From Synechococcus sp. WH 8020 (GTDB lineage: Bacteria > Cyanobacteriota > Cyanobacteriia > PCC-6307 > Cyanobiaceae), in assembly GCF_001040845.1 (NCBI RefSeq), contig NZ_CP011941.1:2486890-2550889 (forward strand): a DNA stretch of 64,000 nt. Direction: 5' to 3'. How positions within the stretch are numbered: position 1 is the first letter of the stretch; every line of letters starts with the position of its first letter. Position numbers and translations under genes: made by a program. The notes beneath the pieces were generated by a model. The model did not search any database. It was given only the letters and a program-made list of their open reading frames with translations, and was not told the origin of the DNA. Below, piece after piece: positions 12,958 through 17,795 of this stretch.

Positions 12958-13220
12958 TTGATTTAGTAAAGGCATTCAGGCCAGGAGATTGTGATAAGAC
13001 TTCAATTCCTTCCGATTGCCGTCTCTCTCGAAACAGCGTATTTCCCATCTTTTGATGCGGGTGTGTTTAAAACCAATGGGAAACAGATGTTGTGATTGAC
13101 CGGGATGCAGCTACGTCACCACTCGATGCGAATGAATTGAGCAGTAGTCCTTTTACCAGCATCAAGTGGATCCCGATTTGCTGCTCGAGGGACAGCTCAT
13201 CTTCCTTGTCGCTCGGCTAA
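12958..13220. other. 263-base intergenic region, nothing firm
   Basis: Between the OsmC gene and the convergent end of pyrFE I see no RNA gene and no strong hairpin. A short open plus-strand stretch near 13155-13265 translates as FYQHQVDPDLLLEGQ and so on, but has no good start and runs into the end of pyrFE. Confidence 0.5.
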
Positions 13221-14756
13221 TCATTGGTCAGTGTGTCGCAGAGCTTGTGCCTGATTGGGACTGATTCGATCCGAGGCCTCGAGTACATGGCTGATGGTGT
13301 CAAGGGTGAGCACGGCTTGCAGCTTCACTCCGTGGCTCTGTAAACGCTGCTTGGCGCGGAGATCATGGATTCCACCATGGTCTAGAAACACCACCACATC
13401 ACGCACGTTCAAGCCAGATGATTCGAGCTTCCCGATTCCTTCCATCACGCTTCCGCCGGTAATCAAAATGTCATCGACCACGGCCACTGTCTCCCCCTTC
13501 TTGAACTCTCCTTCCACCATTCGCCGGGTTCCATGGGCCTTCACTTCTTTTCTTGGGTAAATCAGTGGCTTATGCAATTGCAATGACAAGCCCGTAGCCG
13601 TGGGTAAAGATCCATAAGGAATCCCTGCAATGCGGTCGAATCGCAAGGGCCTTAGCACCTGGGCATAGCAATCGAGAACGCGATGGAAAAGAGCGGGATC
13701 AGAAATGATCTGACGAAGATCAACGTAATAGTTGAAAATTTCACCGCTTGCTTGCTTAAATTCCCCGAATAGAAGGCAGCGGATATCGTACAAATCGATC
13801 ACAAGATCCCAAAGATCTTGATCGATTGGCGTCACTCCATCTTTCCTGCCCGTCGTGATGGAGTCATCCTGATTGGATTGATCCGAGTGGGGCCAGATTC
13901 TGCATTGTTCTGGATGGATTGCATCAGTCTGTGCTCTTTCTTGGAGATGTTGGTCGCGAATTCGATTAATCCTTCCTTTGAGTGTTGCGGCCTGTTCATT
14001 GATTTTGTTCCCGTTCAGCAAATTTTGAGGAAGTGGGATCAACAATCCATCTCCCATCTTGTTTAAGCCGTTTTTGAGCAGACATTGCAAATTCCCTTCC
14101 TCACCCCAGAGTGAGCGGAGCATGACAAATCGTTCGGGTGCTGCTTGTCGCACATCAGCCAATATTGCTGGGTTGCTGGTGCCGACTTCAAGCAACAGTT
14201 GTTCTGGCGTCCCCCAGCTTTGGCTTTCTCGCACCACTTTTAAATAGAAAGGATTGTGGTCATCGGGATGATGTTGAAGATCGCGCGCAGCAGGATTGGA
14301 GCTATGGCAATTAATGAAGACTCCTTTCCCTGGATATAAAAGGAAAGGAGCTGCAATGTCTTGACCAGCAAAAGGATTGAGTGTTACGGCGTCGGCATGC
14401 AGGGATTGGAACAGGTAGGCAGCGATAGCGCTCGAGCTATTGAGATCTCCATGCTTGATATCGATAATGAGCGGCACGTCTGGAGGCAGCAGTTCACGCA
14501 CCTCCAACAGCAGCTCCACACCAGCAGAACCCATCGCTTGATAGAAGCCGAGGCTTGGTTTGTAGGCGCAAACATGATCAGCCGTCTCTTCGATGACGGA
14601 CTTGCACCATGAACGGGCTTGGCTGAGCAGTGATCTGCCGTTGAGTCCGCGCAGGTCTGCCCAGCTGCGCAGCATTTCAGGATTGGGATCAAGGCCCGTC
14701 ACCAGCAGCGACTTCCGACTGCTCATCGCATCGGTGAGTGCCGTGAAAAAGCCCAT
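13221..14756 (-). CDS. pyrFE: Bifunctional orotidine-5'-phosphate decarboxylase / orotate phosphoribosyltransferase (PyrF-PyrE fusion)
   Basis: A 511-residue fusion covering the last two steps of UMP synthesis. The N-terminal ~270 residues are OMP decarboxylase: LLVTGLDPNPEM near 17-28 and the catalytic DIKHGD (Asp99, Lys101, Asp104). The C-terminal ~200 residues are orotate phosphoribosyltransferase with IYPRKEVKAHGT and the PRPP loop AVVDDILITGGS near residues 424-434. A polar linker of about 40 residues joins them. The order is opposite to animal and plant UMP synthase (PyrE-PyrF). OMPDC-OPRT fusions are known from cyanobacteria and kinetoplastids, so this is unusual but not unprecedented. 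Confidence 0.93.
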   Translation of the reverse strand: MGFFTALTDAMSSRKSLLVTGLDPNPEMLRSWADLRGLNGRSLLSQARSWCKSVIEETADHVCAYKPSLGFYQAMGSAGVELLLEVRELLPPDVPLIIDIKHGDLNSSSAIAAYLFQSLHADAVTLNPFAGQDIAAPFLLYPGKGVFINCHSSNPAARDLQHHPDDHNPFYLKVVRESQSWGTPEQLLLEVGTSNPAILADVRQAAPERFVMLRSLWGEEGNLQCLLKNGLNKMGDGLLIPLPQNLLNGNKINEQAATLKGRINRIRDQHLQERAQTDAIHPEQCRIWPHSDQSNQDDSITTGRKDGVTPIDQDLWDLVIDLYDIRCLLFGEFKQASGEIFNYYVDLRQIISDPALFHRVLDCYAQVLRPLRFDRIAGIPYGSLPTATGLSLQLHKPLIYPRKEVKAHGTRRMVEGEFKKGETVAVVDDILITGGSVMEGIGKLESSGLNVRDVVVFLDHGGIHDLRAKQRLQSHGVKLQAVLTLDTISHVLEASDRISPNQAQALRHTDQ

Positions 14757-14959: not shown

Positions 14960-16471
14960 TTAAGTCTTGCTCATGAAGGTGGATGATTTGATTCCCCGCT
15001 GCATCACTATTAGCCTGGACAGTAAGCATCCAAGAGTTGTAAGTAGAACGGCAAGATTCATTGGTAATGGATGTAAATTGTTGGAATTTGCGTACAGTGT
15101 GATGAATATCGATAGCATTAATCCCCAGAAGAAAGAGAGTTCGGCGTAGAAGTCGTGCCGAAGGGTCGGATGGCTTGCGTCGGCTCGAATCACATCACGA
15201 AGAATGGCTCCGCCCGCTCCAGTCATGGCACTGAAGATTGGCCCCCAGAGGATCAAGGGATTGCATTTCTCCTCAACGGCCACGATGACACCCACAACGG
15301 TAAAAGCTGATAAGCCGAGGGCATCCAAAACTTGAACGGTTTTTTCTCCAAAGTGAAGTTTTTCCAGCATTCTGGGCAAACTGCGTAGCTTCGTAAGCCT
15401 TGCTAAAAAGTGACTGATCAGCACGAGTGCAATCACAATGATTAGGTTGTGAGTGGATTGAAGGACTGCTGGTTGGTCTCGATTTGCAATCAAATCCCTG
15501 ATGATTCCACCGCCAAAGGCGGGAAGACTTGCAAGTACGAGTGCGCCAAATAGGCTGAAGCGATCGCGTCGTGCCAATAAGATTCCGGAAAAAGCAAAGG
15601 CTGCCGTTCCAATCGTTTCTAGGGCGAAAAACCATGGCTGGCCTGCTGTCATGGCCAATAAAGAAGGGAAGAGATAATCGCGAACGATTTGGTTGTAACG
15701 TCCATCATCTTTAAGTTTTTGCATCGCTTGATCAAATGCGGCAACGAGTGCAGGTGATGTGGTACGACGACTAAAAAGGGCCACAATTGGACCTGAGAAG
15801 ATGTGTTCTTTACCGGCAATTAGATCTCGACTGAGAGATTCTTCCCAAATTAAAGTGCTCCCTACTAGGCGATCGATGGCAACTAAATCAACCTTTCCGT
15901 TCGCCAGGTTCTGTAGATTCTCGATGTCTGTTTTCACTGATGTCCATCGATCTTGATTGGATGGATTCTTGAGGAAGCTATCGATGGCATCTCCGTAGTA
16001 ATACCCAGATACAACACCTATTCGAAGTTTGCTTGAGGGGAATGATTGCTTAAACTCATCAGGCTGAAGCATGGCGATTGCGCTCGATTCCGATCGTCGA
16101 CTGATCAAAACGATGTCTTCGTTTCGATAAGGGGCTGAAAAGTAGGCATAGCGCTCTCGGTCTGGCGTGATAAAGGCTCCTCCTGCTACATCACGCATTC
16201 CTTCACTGATGTCTTGTTGATGGACCTTCCAGTCCACCTGAGGAAGTTTGAGTGTTAGCCCCAATTCCTCCTCAAAAACCTCTTTCAGCAGCTGAACATC
16301 TAGGCCGGTGAGTTGGAGTCGGTCATTACTATTTTTTTCAAGATATTGATAGGGCTTCCAGGGGTACCAGCCCCCCTGGATGACGTTCTTTCCCGAGGCA
16401 GAAACAGACGCCGACAAGCTCATGATCAGAACCATTGACGCCACTGCGATGGCGAATGTCTTGAGCTTCAC
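14960..16471 (-). CDS. Periplasmic solute-binding domain (SBP family 3) fused to TRIC/UPF0126 channel domain
   Basis: A 503-residue two-part protein. The start is a GTG at 16471 preceded by AAAAGGAT; it gives a classic signal peptide (KLKTFAIAVASMVLIMSL, ending SASG). The longer frame from 16555 starts inside the psbA terminator and is rejected. Residues ~27-280 resemble family 3 amino-acid-binding proteins (WYPWKPYQYLE, GLDVQLLKEVFEEELG, FITPDRERYAYFSAPY, RIGVVSGYYYGD). From ~285 on are about seven hydrophobic helices with the duplicated TRIC motif: LPAFGGGIIRDLI and TGAGGAILRDVI. A ligand-controlled channel is an inference; no biochemical role is known to me. Confidence 0.86.
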   Translation of the reverse strand: MKLKTFAIAVASMVLIMSLSASVSASGKNVIQGGWYPWKPYQYLEKNSNDRLQLTGLDVQLLKEVFEEELGLTLKLPQVDWKVHQQDISEGMRDVAGGAFITPDRERYAYFSAPYRNEDIVLISRRSESSAIAMLQPDEFKQSFPSSKLRIGVVSGYYYGDAIDSFLKNPSNQDRWTSVKTDIENLQNLANGKVDLVAIDRLVGSTLIWEESLSRDLIAGKEHIFSGPIVALFSRRTTSPALVAAFDQAMQKLKDDGRYNQIVRDYLFPSLLAMTAGQPWFFALETIGTAAFAFSGILLARRDRFSLFGALVLASLPAFGGGIIRDLIANRDQPAVLQSTHNLIIVIALVLISHFLARLTKLRSLPRMLEKLHFGEKTVQVLDALGLSAFTVVGVIVAVEEKCNPLILWGPIFSAMTGAGGAILRDVIRADASHPTLRHDFYAELSFFWGLMLSIFITLYANSNNLHPLPMNLAVLLTTLGCLLSRLIVMQRGIKSSTFMSKT

Positions 16472-16555
16472 GGATCCTTTTGTCTTGATTTTAATGCTGC
16501 TCGAATTTGGATCAATGTCATCATCCAAAAAGTCAACAGGACTGATCCAAGCCAC

Positions 16556-16583
16556 AAAAAAGCCCCCGCCGAAAGGCGGGGGC
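16556..16583 (-). terminator. Rho-independent terminator of psbA
   Basis: Arms GCCCCCGCC (16562-16570) and GGCGGGGGC (16575-16583) enclose a four-base GAAA/TTTC loop. Read on the minus strand the hairpin is followed by six T. It lies about 40 bases after the psbA stop. Confidence 0.95.
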
Positions 16584-16623: not shown

Positions 16624-17703
16624 TCAACCGATGGCAGGTGCCTGAAGAGCCACAGGTGTGGACTCAGCAGCAGCCAGGTCGAGGGGGAAGTTATGAGCGT
16701 TGCGCTCGTGCATCACTTCCATGCCAAGACCAGCTCTGTTAAGAACGTCGGCCCAGGTGTTCAGGACGCGGCCCTGACCATCAAGGATCGACTGGTTGAA
16801 GTTGAAGCCGTTCAGGTTGAAGGCCATGGTTGACACGCCAAGGGCGGTGAACCAGATGCCGACCACAGGCCAGGCTGCAAGGAAGAAGTGCAGGCTACGG
16901 CTGTTGTTGAAGGAGGCGTATTGGAAGATCAGGCGACCGAAGTAGCCGTGAGCAGCCACGATGTTGTACGTCTCTTCTTCTTGGCCGAACTTGTAGCCAT
17001 AGTTCTGGGACTCGGTCTCGGTGGTTTCACGCACCAAGGAGGAGGTCACCAGTGAGCCGTGCATGGCGGAGAACAGTGAACCACCGAAAACACCAGCCAC
17101 TCCCAGCATGTGGAAGGGGTGCATCAGGATGTTGTGCTCAGCCTGGAACACCAACATGTAGTTGAAGGTTCCAGAGATGCCCAAAGGCATGGCGTCAGAG
17201 AACGAACCCTGACCGAAGGGGTAGACCAGGAACACTGCAGATGCAGCAGCAACAGGTGCGCTGTAAGCAACACAGATCCAAGGGCGCATGCCCAAGCGGT
17301 AGGAGAGTTCCCACTCACGTCCCATATAGGCGTAGATGCCGATCAGGAAGTGGAACACAACCAGCTGGAAAGGACCGCCGTTGTAGAGCCACTCGTCGAG
17401 TGAGGCAGCTTCCCAGATGGGGTAGAAGTGCAAGCCAATGGCGTTGCTGGAAGGAACAACAGCACCAGAAATGATGTTGTTGCCATACATCAGTGAACCT
17501 GCAACAGGCTCGCGGATGCCGTCGATATCAACCGGAGGTGCGGCGATGAAAGCGACGATGAAGCAGGTGGTAGCGGCAAGCAGGGTGGGGATCATCAACA
17601 CACCGAACCAACCGACATACAGACGGTTGTTGGTGGAGGTGACCCACTCACAGAACTGCTGCCAGCCATTAGCGCCGGAGCGCTGCTGGATGGTGGTAGT
17701 CAT
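16624..17703 (-). CDS. psbA: Photosystem II D1 protein, Glu130 (high-light) form
   Basis: A 359-residue D1 protein, the reaction-centre subunit that carries P680 ligands, the QB site and most ligands of the manganese cluster. Sequence from [10 protein letters not shown] to the C-terminus is canonical, with five membrane helices, [18 protein letters not shown] at the QB loop and the tail [11 protein letters not shown], where processing normally occurs after DLA. Residue 130 is Glu ([11 protein letters not shown]), the residue of high-light D1:2 forms rather than Gln of D1:1. A strong terminator follows. A radical SAM gene diverges upstream. Confidence 0.99.
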
Positions 17704-17745
17704 GAGAACGGAAAAGAAGGTCTCGCAAGGAGACGGTTACGGAAG

Positions 17746-17795
17746 GGCAGGATGCCCTGCCACACGCAATGTAAAGCAAGATTGCGCTTTGTAAG
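17746..17795 (-). promoter_or_regulatory. Probable psbA promoter and leader hairpin
   Basis: On the minus strand CTTACA (17790-17795) and TACATT (17768-17773) sit 16 bases apart as a plausible -35/-10 pair, which would give a leader of about 55-60 bases. Inside that leader GGCAGG GCAT CCTGCC (17746-17761) forms a perfect six-pair hairpin. Each hexamer matches the sigma-70 consensus at four of six bases, so this is a candidate only. Confidence 0.4.

Follow-up and report, generated by a model that had tools for sequence, protein, structure and literature searches.

Prokaryotic TRIC proteins (UPF0126), ordinarily about 210 residues long, are debated as either K+ channels, on the strength of structures and bilayer work, or metabolite transporters, on the strength of glycine fitness data. 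Prokaryotic TRICs are reported to carry cation (K+) currents in bilayers, another TRIC paper suggests a role in the membrane potential instead of metabolite transport, and a review reporting fitness data from 2018 states that UPF0126 genes are important for the use of glycine in 11 bacteria. Papers that mention UPF0126 or PF03458 include PMC12173739, PMC5477506 and PMC4602095, with PMC5401562 as a further source.

Solute-binding proteins (SBPs) joined to membrane proteins are already known in kind. In ABC importers with fused SBPs (GlnPQ; binding domains 6h30 and 4kqp), a family 3 SBP is permanently joined to the membrane part. In GluR0 and other bacterial ionotropic glutamate receptors, an SBP fold is combined with an ion-channel-type membrane domain, and the pore interrupts the SBP. 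Since 2025, an SBP-carrier fusion has also been published, namely TAXI-GltS (found in Bordetella, and fused in Lachnospiraceae), whose authors state that, among secondary transporters, only TRAP and TTT had been known to work with SBPs, and ask whether SBPs need an elevator-type carrier, a question that further classes would test (PMC12344293). Here we describe a gene in which a family 3 SBP precedes a TRIC domain. No description of such a fusion was found in the open literature searched, where most subscription papers are missing.

A binding protein and a TRIC domain in one reading frame

The window is a stretch of 64,000 nucleotides from Synechococcus sp. WH 8020, the genome of which is a single 2.66-Mb contig, and a PF03458 search of this genome found the present gene alone. 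The frame, which runs from GTG to stop on the minus strand, is intact, without stop or frame break, and encodes 503 residues in the order signal peptide, family 3 SBP and both halves of TRIC/UPF0126 (Table 1). In Pfam, SBP_bac_3 (PF00497) matches in one stretch with 68.2 bits (cut-off 26.4), and Gly_transporter (PF03458, TRIC/UPF0126) in two stretches with 100.2 bits (cut-off 23.5); in NCBIfam, every model stayed below its own cut-off. The solved proteins matched differ by half, with amino-acid SBPs for the binding part and the TRICs 5wuf, 5h35, 5wtr, 5wuc and 5h36 for the membrane part.

An earlier note, made from the letters alone, had proposed a signal peptide, a family 3 SBP and a duplicated TRIC domain on one chain, with the boundary inside one open frame. 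This anatomy is borne out by the Pfam matches, by 22 in-frame fusions and by a model with the TRIC fold, the putative signal peptide being assigned by reading. The GTG start with AAAAGGAT upstream is likewise where it had been proposed. A GTG further upstream, at 16555 (531 residues), is unlikely to be the start, because an orthologue with 91% identity has just 513 open codons, only ten of which precede the same start. Of the two GGxxRD motifs claimed, both glycine motifs are present, and their spelling needs correction: the first reads GGGIIRD and the second GGAILRD, which is GGxxxRD when counted from its GG.

The domain content sets the protein apart from the described systems. Fused-SBP ABC importers share the permanently joined family 3 SBP. 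In contrast to them, the present protein has PF03458 in place of an ABC permease or ATPase domain, and its neighbours are psbA and a pyrF-pyrE-like gene (both read from translation), so that the candidate reading as an ABC subunit was rejected, with no ABC permease or ATPase either fused or adjacent. Pfam shows PF03458 alone in the membrane part, with neither DctQM, TctAB nor GltS as in TRAP, TTT and TAXI-GltS. Unlike the SBP of GluR0, which is split by a K+-channel-type pore, the SBP here is whole, matched in one stretch, and the TRIC domain follows it.

Table 1. Features of the fusion gene and its surroundings (positions in the window), and NMT1-TRIC genes of other genomes (positions in the named locus)
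Feature	Position	Strand	Remarks
SBP3-TRIC fusion gene	14960..16471	-	503 aa, GTG start; Pfam and the orthologue's short open frame
AAAAGGAT, Shine-Dalgarno-like	16474..16481	-	read from sequence; short spacing to GTG
Putative signal peptide, residues ~1-26	16394..16471	-	read from sequence
Family 3 SBP domain, residues ~30-268	15668..16384	-	PF00497; AlphaFold; 1wdn match
R105 codon	16157-16159	-	
D200 codon	15872-15874	-	
Junction P269-W280	15632..15667	-	12 residues in 22/22 in-frame fusions
TRIC/UPF0126 membrane domain, residues ~281-495, seven predicted helices	14987..15631	-	PF03458 twice; model; 5h35 match
First TRIC motif GGIIRD, residues 321-326	15494..15511	-	
Second TRIC motif GGAILRD, residues 420-426	15194..15214	-	
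psbA (photosystem II D1), upstream neighbour	16624..17703	-	read from translation
Terminator-like hairpin between psbA and fusion gene	16562..16577	-	weak alone
pyrF-pyrE-like protein, downstream neighbour	13221..14756	-	read from translation
NMT1-TRIC overlapping thiO start	L065:8374-10164		
NMT1-TRIC overlapping thiO start	L066:2586-4385		
NMT1-TRIC overlapping thiO start	L067:8221-10011		
NMT1-TRIC overlapping thiO start	L068:8342-10072		
Other NMT1-TRIC	L062:10176-11927		
Other NMT1-TRIC	L069:9368-11101		

Neighbourhood of the fusion gene

The fusion gene lies directly behind psbA in the source window and in the related loci L055 and L056. In L057 and L058, the contig stops just before the fusion, with apparently the same terminator, as if broken at a repeated psbA. 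The region has 5 terminator-like sites, where shuffled sequences have 2.9 on average. In the loci compared, in which gene names were mostly read from translations, the nearest relatives share psbA and pyrF-pyrE, and no other conserved neighbour of the fusion, metabolic or otherwise, was seen.

Between positions 13000 and 19000 of the window, the sole Rfam match above cut-off is a PhotoRC-I RNA before psbA (17720-17762). In ten loci of other phyla, Rfam found two tRNAs and, in a Burkholderiaceae locus (L080), a SAM-I/IV riboswitch about 4 kb from the fusion; a riboswitch adjoining the fusion was found neither there nor in the stretch of the window just named. Near its fusion, the Burkholderiaceae locus also encodes a PF03458 protein of highly divergent sequence (L080:11027-11722), in a genome with three PF03458 genes. 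The defence-system search gave no match.

Recurrence of the fusion

Searching 149 relatives (source genome included) with the whole protein gave matches in 22, and the full fusion was present in seven besides the source genome, at 54-91% identity. A survey of the family found PF03458 in 24 of 400 genomes. Frames longer than 500 residues were seen in 14 of these, as sixteen genes, ten with the family 3 SBP (SBP3) and six with another SBP; two genomes (G012 and G168) have both kinds. At the level of the phylum, PF03458 is present in 11 of 291 genomes, and fusion-size frames only in the source genome and in G004. A scan of genome contigs added fusions from Burkholderiaceae (L080, 44% identity), Glo_12 (L081, 39%), Reyranella (L082, 37%), Verrucomicrobiota (L083, 37%) and Alphaproteobacteria MAGs (L084, 36%). 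Surveys around three of these genomes, chosen as centres for having a fusion, found PF03458 in 32 of 142, 41 of 185 and 49 of 145 genomes, and profile-confirmed SBP3 fusions in 5, 1 and 2 with the centre counted (4, 0 and 1 without it). One genome of 1.4 Mb (G805) carries three copies. Altogether, when each gene is counted once, there are 22 distinct, profile-confirmed in-frame SBP3-TRIC proteins, which come from Cyanobacteria, Pseudomonadota and Verrucomicrobiota. The fusion is rare, but real and widespread.

The earlier note had accepted that a sequencing error would overturn its reading. Chance or a frame error is excluded, because the frame is intact, the genome is a single contig and the fusion is present in other assemblies, where orthologues 36-91% identical to the source protein hold both parts in one frame. 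A sequencing or annotation artefact thus has a negligible probability for the source gene. Such an explanation could point to one other locus, L048:333-2205 (G173), which has no bearing on the source gene: its SBP3 match and its TRIC match are in different frames, with the change of frame at the junction, which makes it either a broken copy of the fusion or a product of misassembly. With the 22 in-frame fusions, the constant length of the junction and the model of the TRIC fold, a true single-chain protein is strongly supported.

Six further long TRIC frames (L124, L125, L126, L128, L129 and L131) were considered as other fusions and rejected, since Pfam shows PF03458 alone. Two SBP profiles detected no SBP in L119, L122 and L127, and one genome (G1111) has a frame of 451 residues with a match below cut-off.

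Binding domain, junction and membrane domain

Modelled alone with AlphaFold, the SBP domain reaches a pLDDT of 93.8. In the model of the mature protein (see below), it resembles GlnBP (1wdn; Z 25.7, 2.2 A, 218 residues) and the ligand core of GluR0 (2pyy; Z 23.7, 2.2 A, 209 residues). Its placement in family 3 follows from the PF00497 match, the fold and an Arg and Asp signature. These two residues, R105 (kept in 21 of the 22 fusions) and D200 (kept in all), align with an Arg and an Asp of AncQR, which has been solved with Arg and with Gln, and presumably hold the carboxylate and amino groups of an amino acid. W35 and Y41 are invariant, and W38 is found in 18 of the 22. The pocket is unusual in that residue 100, which we take to be the usual Thr/Ser position next to the ligand carboxylate, is Phe in 13 proteins, Thr in 7, and Ser and Pro in one each. 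The ligand is likely to be an alpha-amino acid, judging from these residues; that it is glycine or another small amino acid is a guess.

The longest gap-free block in the alignment of the 22 proteins (93 columns, the next being 39) covers the last part of the SBP, the junction and TM1-2, and the distance from P269 to W280 never varies (Table 1). Since indels are expected in a loop between domains, the fixed length argues for close coupling of the SBP and TRIC rather than for a loose tether. Against L055, pN/pS is 0.11 for the SBP, 0 for the junction and 0.19 for the TRIC part. Over L055, L056 and L057, the SBP ranges from 0.11 to 0.25, the TRIC part from 0.19 to 0.24 and the junction, the lowest of the three, from 0 to 0.08, with only 17 junction codons, and silent sites near saturation in L056 and L057. 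All three parts are under purifying selection. The same data make it very improbable that the SBP is cleaved off to serve a separate ABC importer while TRIC works alone. That explanation would accommodate the finding that the majority of TRIC frames in the surveys are without an SBP, and that one solo TRIC groups with the fused ones (see below), but it sits poorly with the uniform length of the junction and with its low pN/pS.

A template-free AlphaFold model of the mature protein, built from 11 sequences (pLDDT 81.0, pTM 0.73), predicts the SBP followed by seven membrane helices. The modelled membrane part is less certain, with ten-residue pLDDT means of 43-90, and matches the TRIC 5h35 (Z 23.9, 2.2 A, 194 residues), so that the C-terminal part, which the earlier note had wished to see checked for the fold, appears to have it. 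Lys and Arg in the modelled loops number 9 inside versus 2 outside with the N-terminus out, which fits the outside location that a periplasmic SBP needs. The glycines G321 and G421 are kept in all 22 fusions and G420 in 17. The lock residues D383, R425, D426 and Y442, which are identified by SaTRIC numbering and by equivalences from motif spacing and alignments, are each kept in 21. With two PF03458 repeats, a predicted seven-helix fold, the glycine motifs and the D, R-D and Y lock, the membrane domain is of the same kind as the prokaryotic TRIC/UPF0126 proteins SaTRIC, CpTRIC and E. coli YadS, and the fusion differs from these by its additional N-terminal periplasmic SBP.

The third copy in the 1.4-Mb genome (L117:6891-8369) is without the ligand Arg and without the lock residues, and is perhaps a regulatory or decayed paralogue. 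The joint loss hints that the ligand-binding and lock functions may be tied. Some members may then be regulatory, and the SBP could in general bind a ligand as a membrane-tethered sensor or scavenger, with TRIC mainly as an anchor or a signalling partner without flux. The fold matches include the SBP domains of two such proteins, the histidine kinase 3h7m and RmcA (7ejg). We nevertheless consider this explanation improbable, as a mere anchor would not need the lock residues that nearly all fusions keep.

A second binding protein on TRIC

The six long frames with another SBP, from Synechococcus and Cyanobium relatives (G002, G004, G012, G021, G168 and G287), carry an SBP of the NMT1/THI5 family (PF09084) on TRIC. 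The best solved match of the G004 copy is the thiamin-pyrimidine binding protein 3ix1 (E 5e-7), followed by yeast THI13 and THI5. The thiamin reading is weak, because the sulfonate-binding SsuA family matches as well, below cut-off. NMT1-TRIC resembles SBP3-TRIC in having an N-terminal SBP on the same kind of TRIC domain. It differs in the SBP family, in the gap between the SBP and TRIC profile matches (28 residues versus 10), in the replacement of the Arg of the second TRIC motif by Leu, and in its tie to thiO.

In four of the six genomes, NMT1-TRIC stands directly between gatB (read from sequence) and thiO, the frame of which starts inside its end with an ATGA overlap. ThiO, a glycine oxidase, scores 255.1 bits in G004, against an equivalog cut-off of 250.8. 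In G168 (L062:7676-13508), a Na+/H+ exchanger, NMT1-TRIC, AgcS and ThiO follow each other on one strand. AgcS belongs to the Na+:alanine symporter family, which also takes glycine. In G287, gatB and thiO were both not found in the 20 kb fetched. Among eight genomes picked without NMT1-TRIC, gatB and thiO are side by side in seven, including the source genome, and gatB is absent from the fetched flank of the eighth. Seven loci with NMT1-TRIC or thiO were searched with Rfam, and nothing reached the cut-off.

Convergent with one of the NMT1-TRIC genes, and adjoining a glutamine synthetase-like gene, is a gene for a protein of 416 residues (L069:8146-9396), whose SBP3 match is split by a membrane stretch and which reads like a GluR0-type receptor.

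Trees of the TRIC domain

A first tree, from which the loci below L055 were left out (many repeats, but 11 more solo rows), places the TRIC domains of the SBP3 fusions on one branch (98/94) together with a solo TRIC (L120), and those of the NMT1 fusions (97/86) nearest to five solo TRICs of the family. The test rejects a clade that holds all 28 fused TRICs and no solo (AU p 3e-6), but not a strict clade made up of the 22 SBP3 rows (p 0.131). L120 is placed among these rows, and L117, L118 and L120 have long branches with warned joins. In a wider tree (65 rows, quick method), the SBP3 rows share a branch (SH-aLRT 96) with L120 and L048, and the NMT1 rows (87) one with five solos; on closer inspection L048 is no solo, its SBP3 match lying in another frame. 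TRIC has thus become joined to two or more kinds of SBP, whether through separate fusions or through an exchange of the SBP. The trees are unrooted and fit two separate fusions, and also one early fusion with SBP swap and loss.

The earlier note had named homologues with the two domains in separate genes, together with a sequencing error in the present gene, as evidence against its reading. One TRIC without an SBP (L120:7587-8399) does group with the fused ones, and its 16 kb of fetched sequence contains no SBP match. A loss of the SBP is possible in this case. In G178, a TMEM175-like K+ channel gene adjoins a solo TRIC (L073:8587-10239) of the kind that comes closest to NMT1-TRIC.

Discussion

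The earlier note had left open whether the ligand gates the membrane domain or is fed into it. The anatomy agrees with both, and we lean to the latter, in view of the second, unlike SBP family fused to the same domain beside thiO, and of the glycine-use phenotype of UPF0126 genes. With about even confidence, we propose that SBP-TRIC is a binding-protein-dependent permease that consists of a single chain, works without ATP and receives a small amino acid in its TRIC domain from its own SBP. The signal peptide would direct the SBP to the periplasm, where it would close on an alpha-amino acid. The short fixed junction would keep each SBP at the periplasmic mouth of the TRIC protomer to which it belongs, and a TRIC trimer, if formed, would then carry three SBPs. 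When the SBP closes and docks, the ligand would pass to the TRIC pathway, and the lock network of D383, R425-D426 and Y442 would be more readily unlocked. The solute would then move in, down its own gradient or a coupled ion gradient; both the coupling and the direction are presumed.

The permease is favoured by the two unlike SBP families, the amino-acid features of SBP3, the thiO and AgcS context of NMT1-TRIC, and the glycine-use phenotype, and TAXI-GltS is a published precedent of an SBP-carrier fusion. Against it count the cation currents of prokaryotic TRICs, the role in the membrane potential that has been suggested for TRIC, and the failure to find a conserved metabolic neighbour or a riboswitch in the SBP3 loci searched. 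The link to glycine rests on a review, position 100 is Phe in 13 of 22 proteins, and the thiamin reading of the NMT1 SBP is weak. Moreover, the 2025 paper asks whether the partners of SBPs must be elevators, and TRIC is not known as one.

The chief rival, which we regard as rather unlikely, is a ligand-gated TRIC cation channel, in which closing of the SBP on an amino acid opens or shuts a K+ flux, as in GluR0. It owes its rank to the reported conduction of K+ by TRICs and to the gating of GluR0 by the same SBP fold; the fold matches include the ligand core of GluR0 (2pyy). Most of the pore and lock residues are kept, the short constant junction fits mechanical gating, and the K+ channel gene beside the solo TRIC of G178 and the Na+-linked carriers beside NMT1-TRIC in G168, which a counter-ion channel could serve, point the same way. 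However, the attachment of another, unlike SBP, with its tie to thiO, to the same domain fits supply better than gating, and the glycine-use phenotype also counts against this rival. If the protein were a gated channel, bacteria would have two routes by which a binding protein has become part of a ligand-gated ion channel, the other being GluR0.

The preferred permease reading would place SBP-TRIC near TAXI-GltS, with which it shares an SBP tied to a non-ABC carrier, single-chain fusions and the SBP in first place. The SBP and carrier families are different, and an elevator mechanism, as modelled for GltS, is not known for TRIC. SBP-TRIC is a candidate further class for testing the elevator idea. 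It is conceivable, at somewhat less than even confidence, that SBP-TRIC proteins form another class of binding-protein-dependent transporters, so far undescribed, and that the TRIC fold, known as a K+ channel, is in them a solute permease with its substrate set by the attached SBP. If so, two unlike families of SBP, of amino-acid type and of NMT1/THI5 type, have been attached to it, and SBPs can serve a carrier fold that is not known as an elevator. For the debate on TRIC/UPF0126, the ligand-binding domain in the same chain is a handle: once its ligand is found, the cargo or the gate follows.

Viral and plasmid records

Pattern scans of viral contigs found relatives of neither fusion. In plasmid records, 83 match a part of the query, and none covers 80% of it at one place. 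One of these matches (H1, a Klebsiella record) has a TRIC gene and, under the same match, an annotated btuF, the gene for the vitamin B12 binding protein, and is perhaps another case of a TRIC beside an SBP gene.
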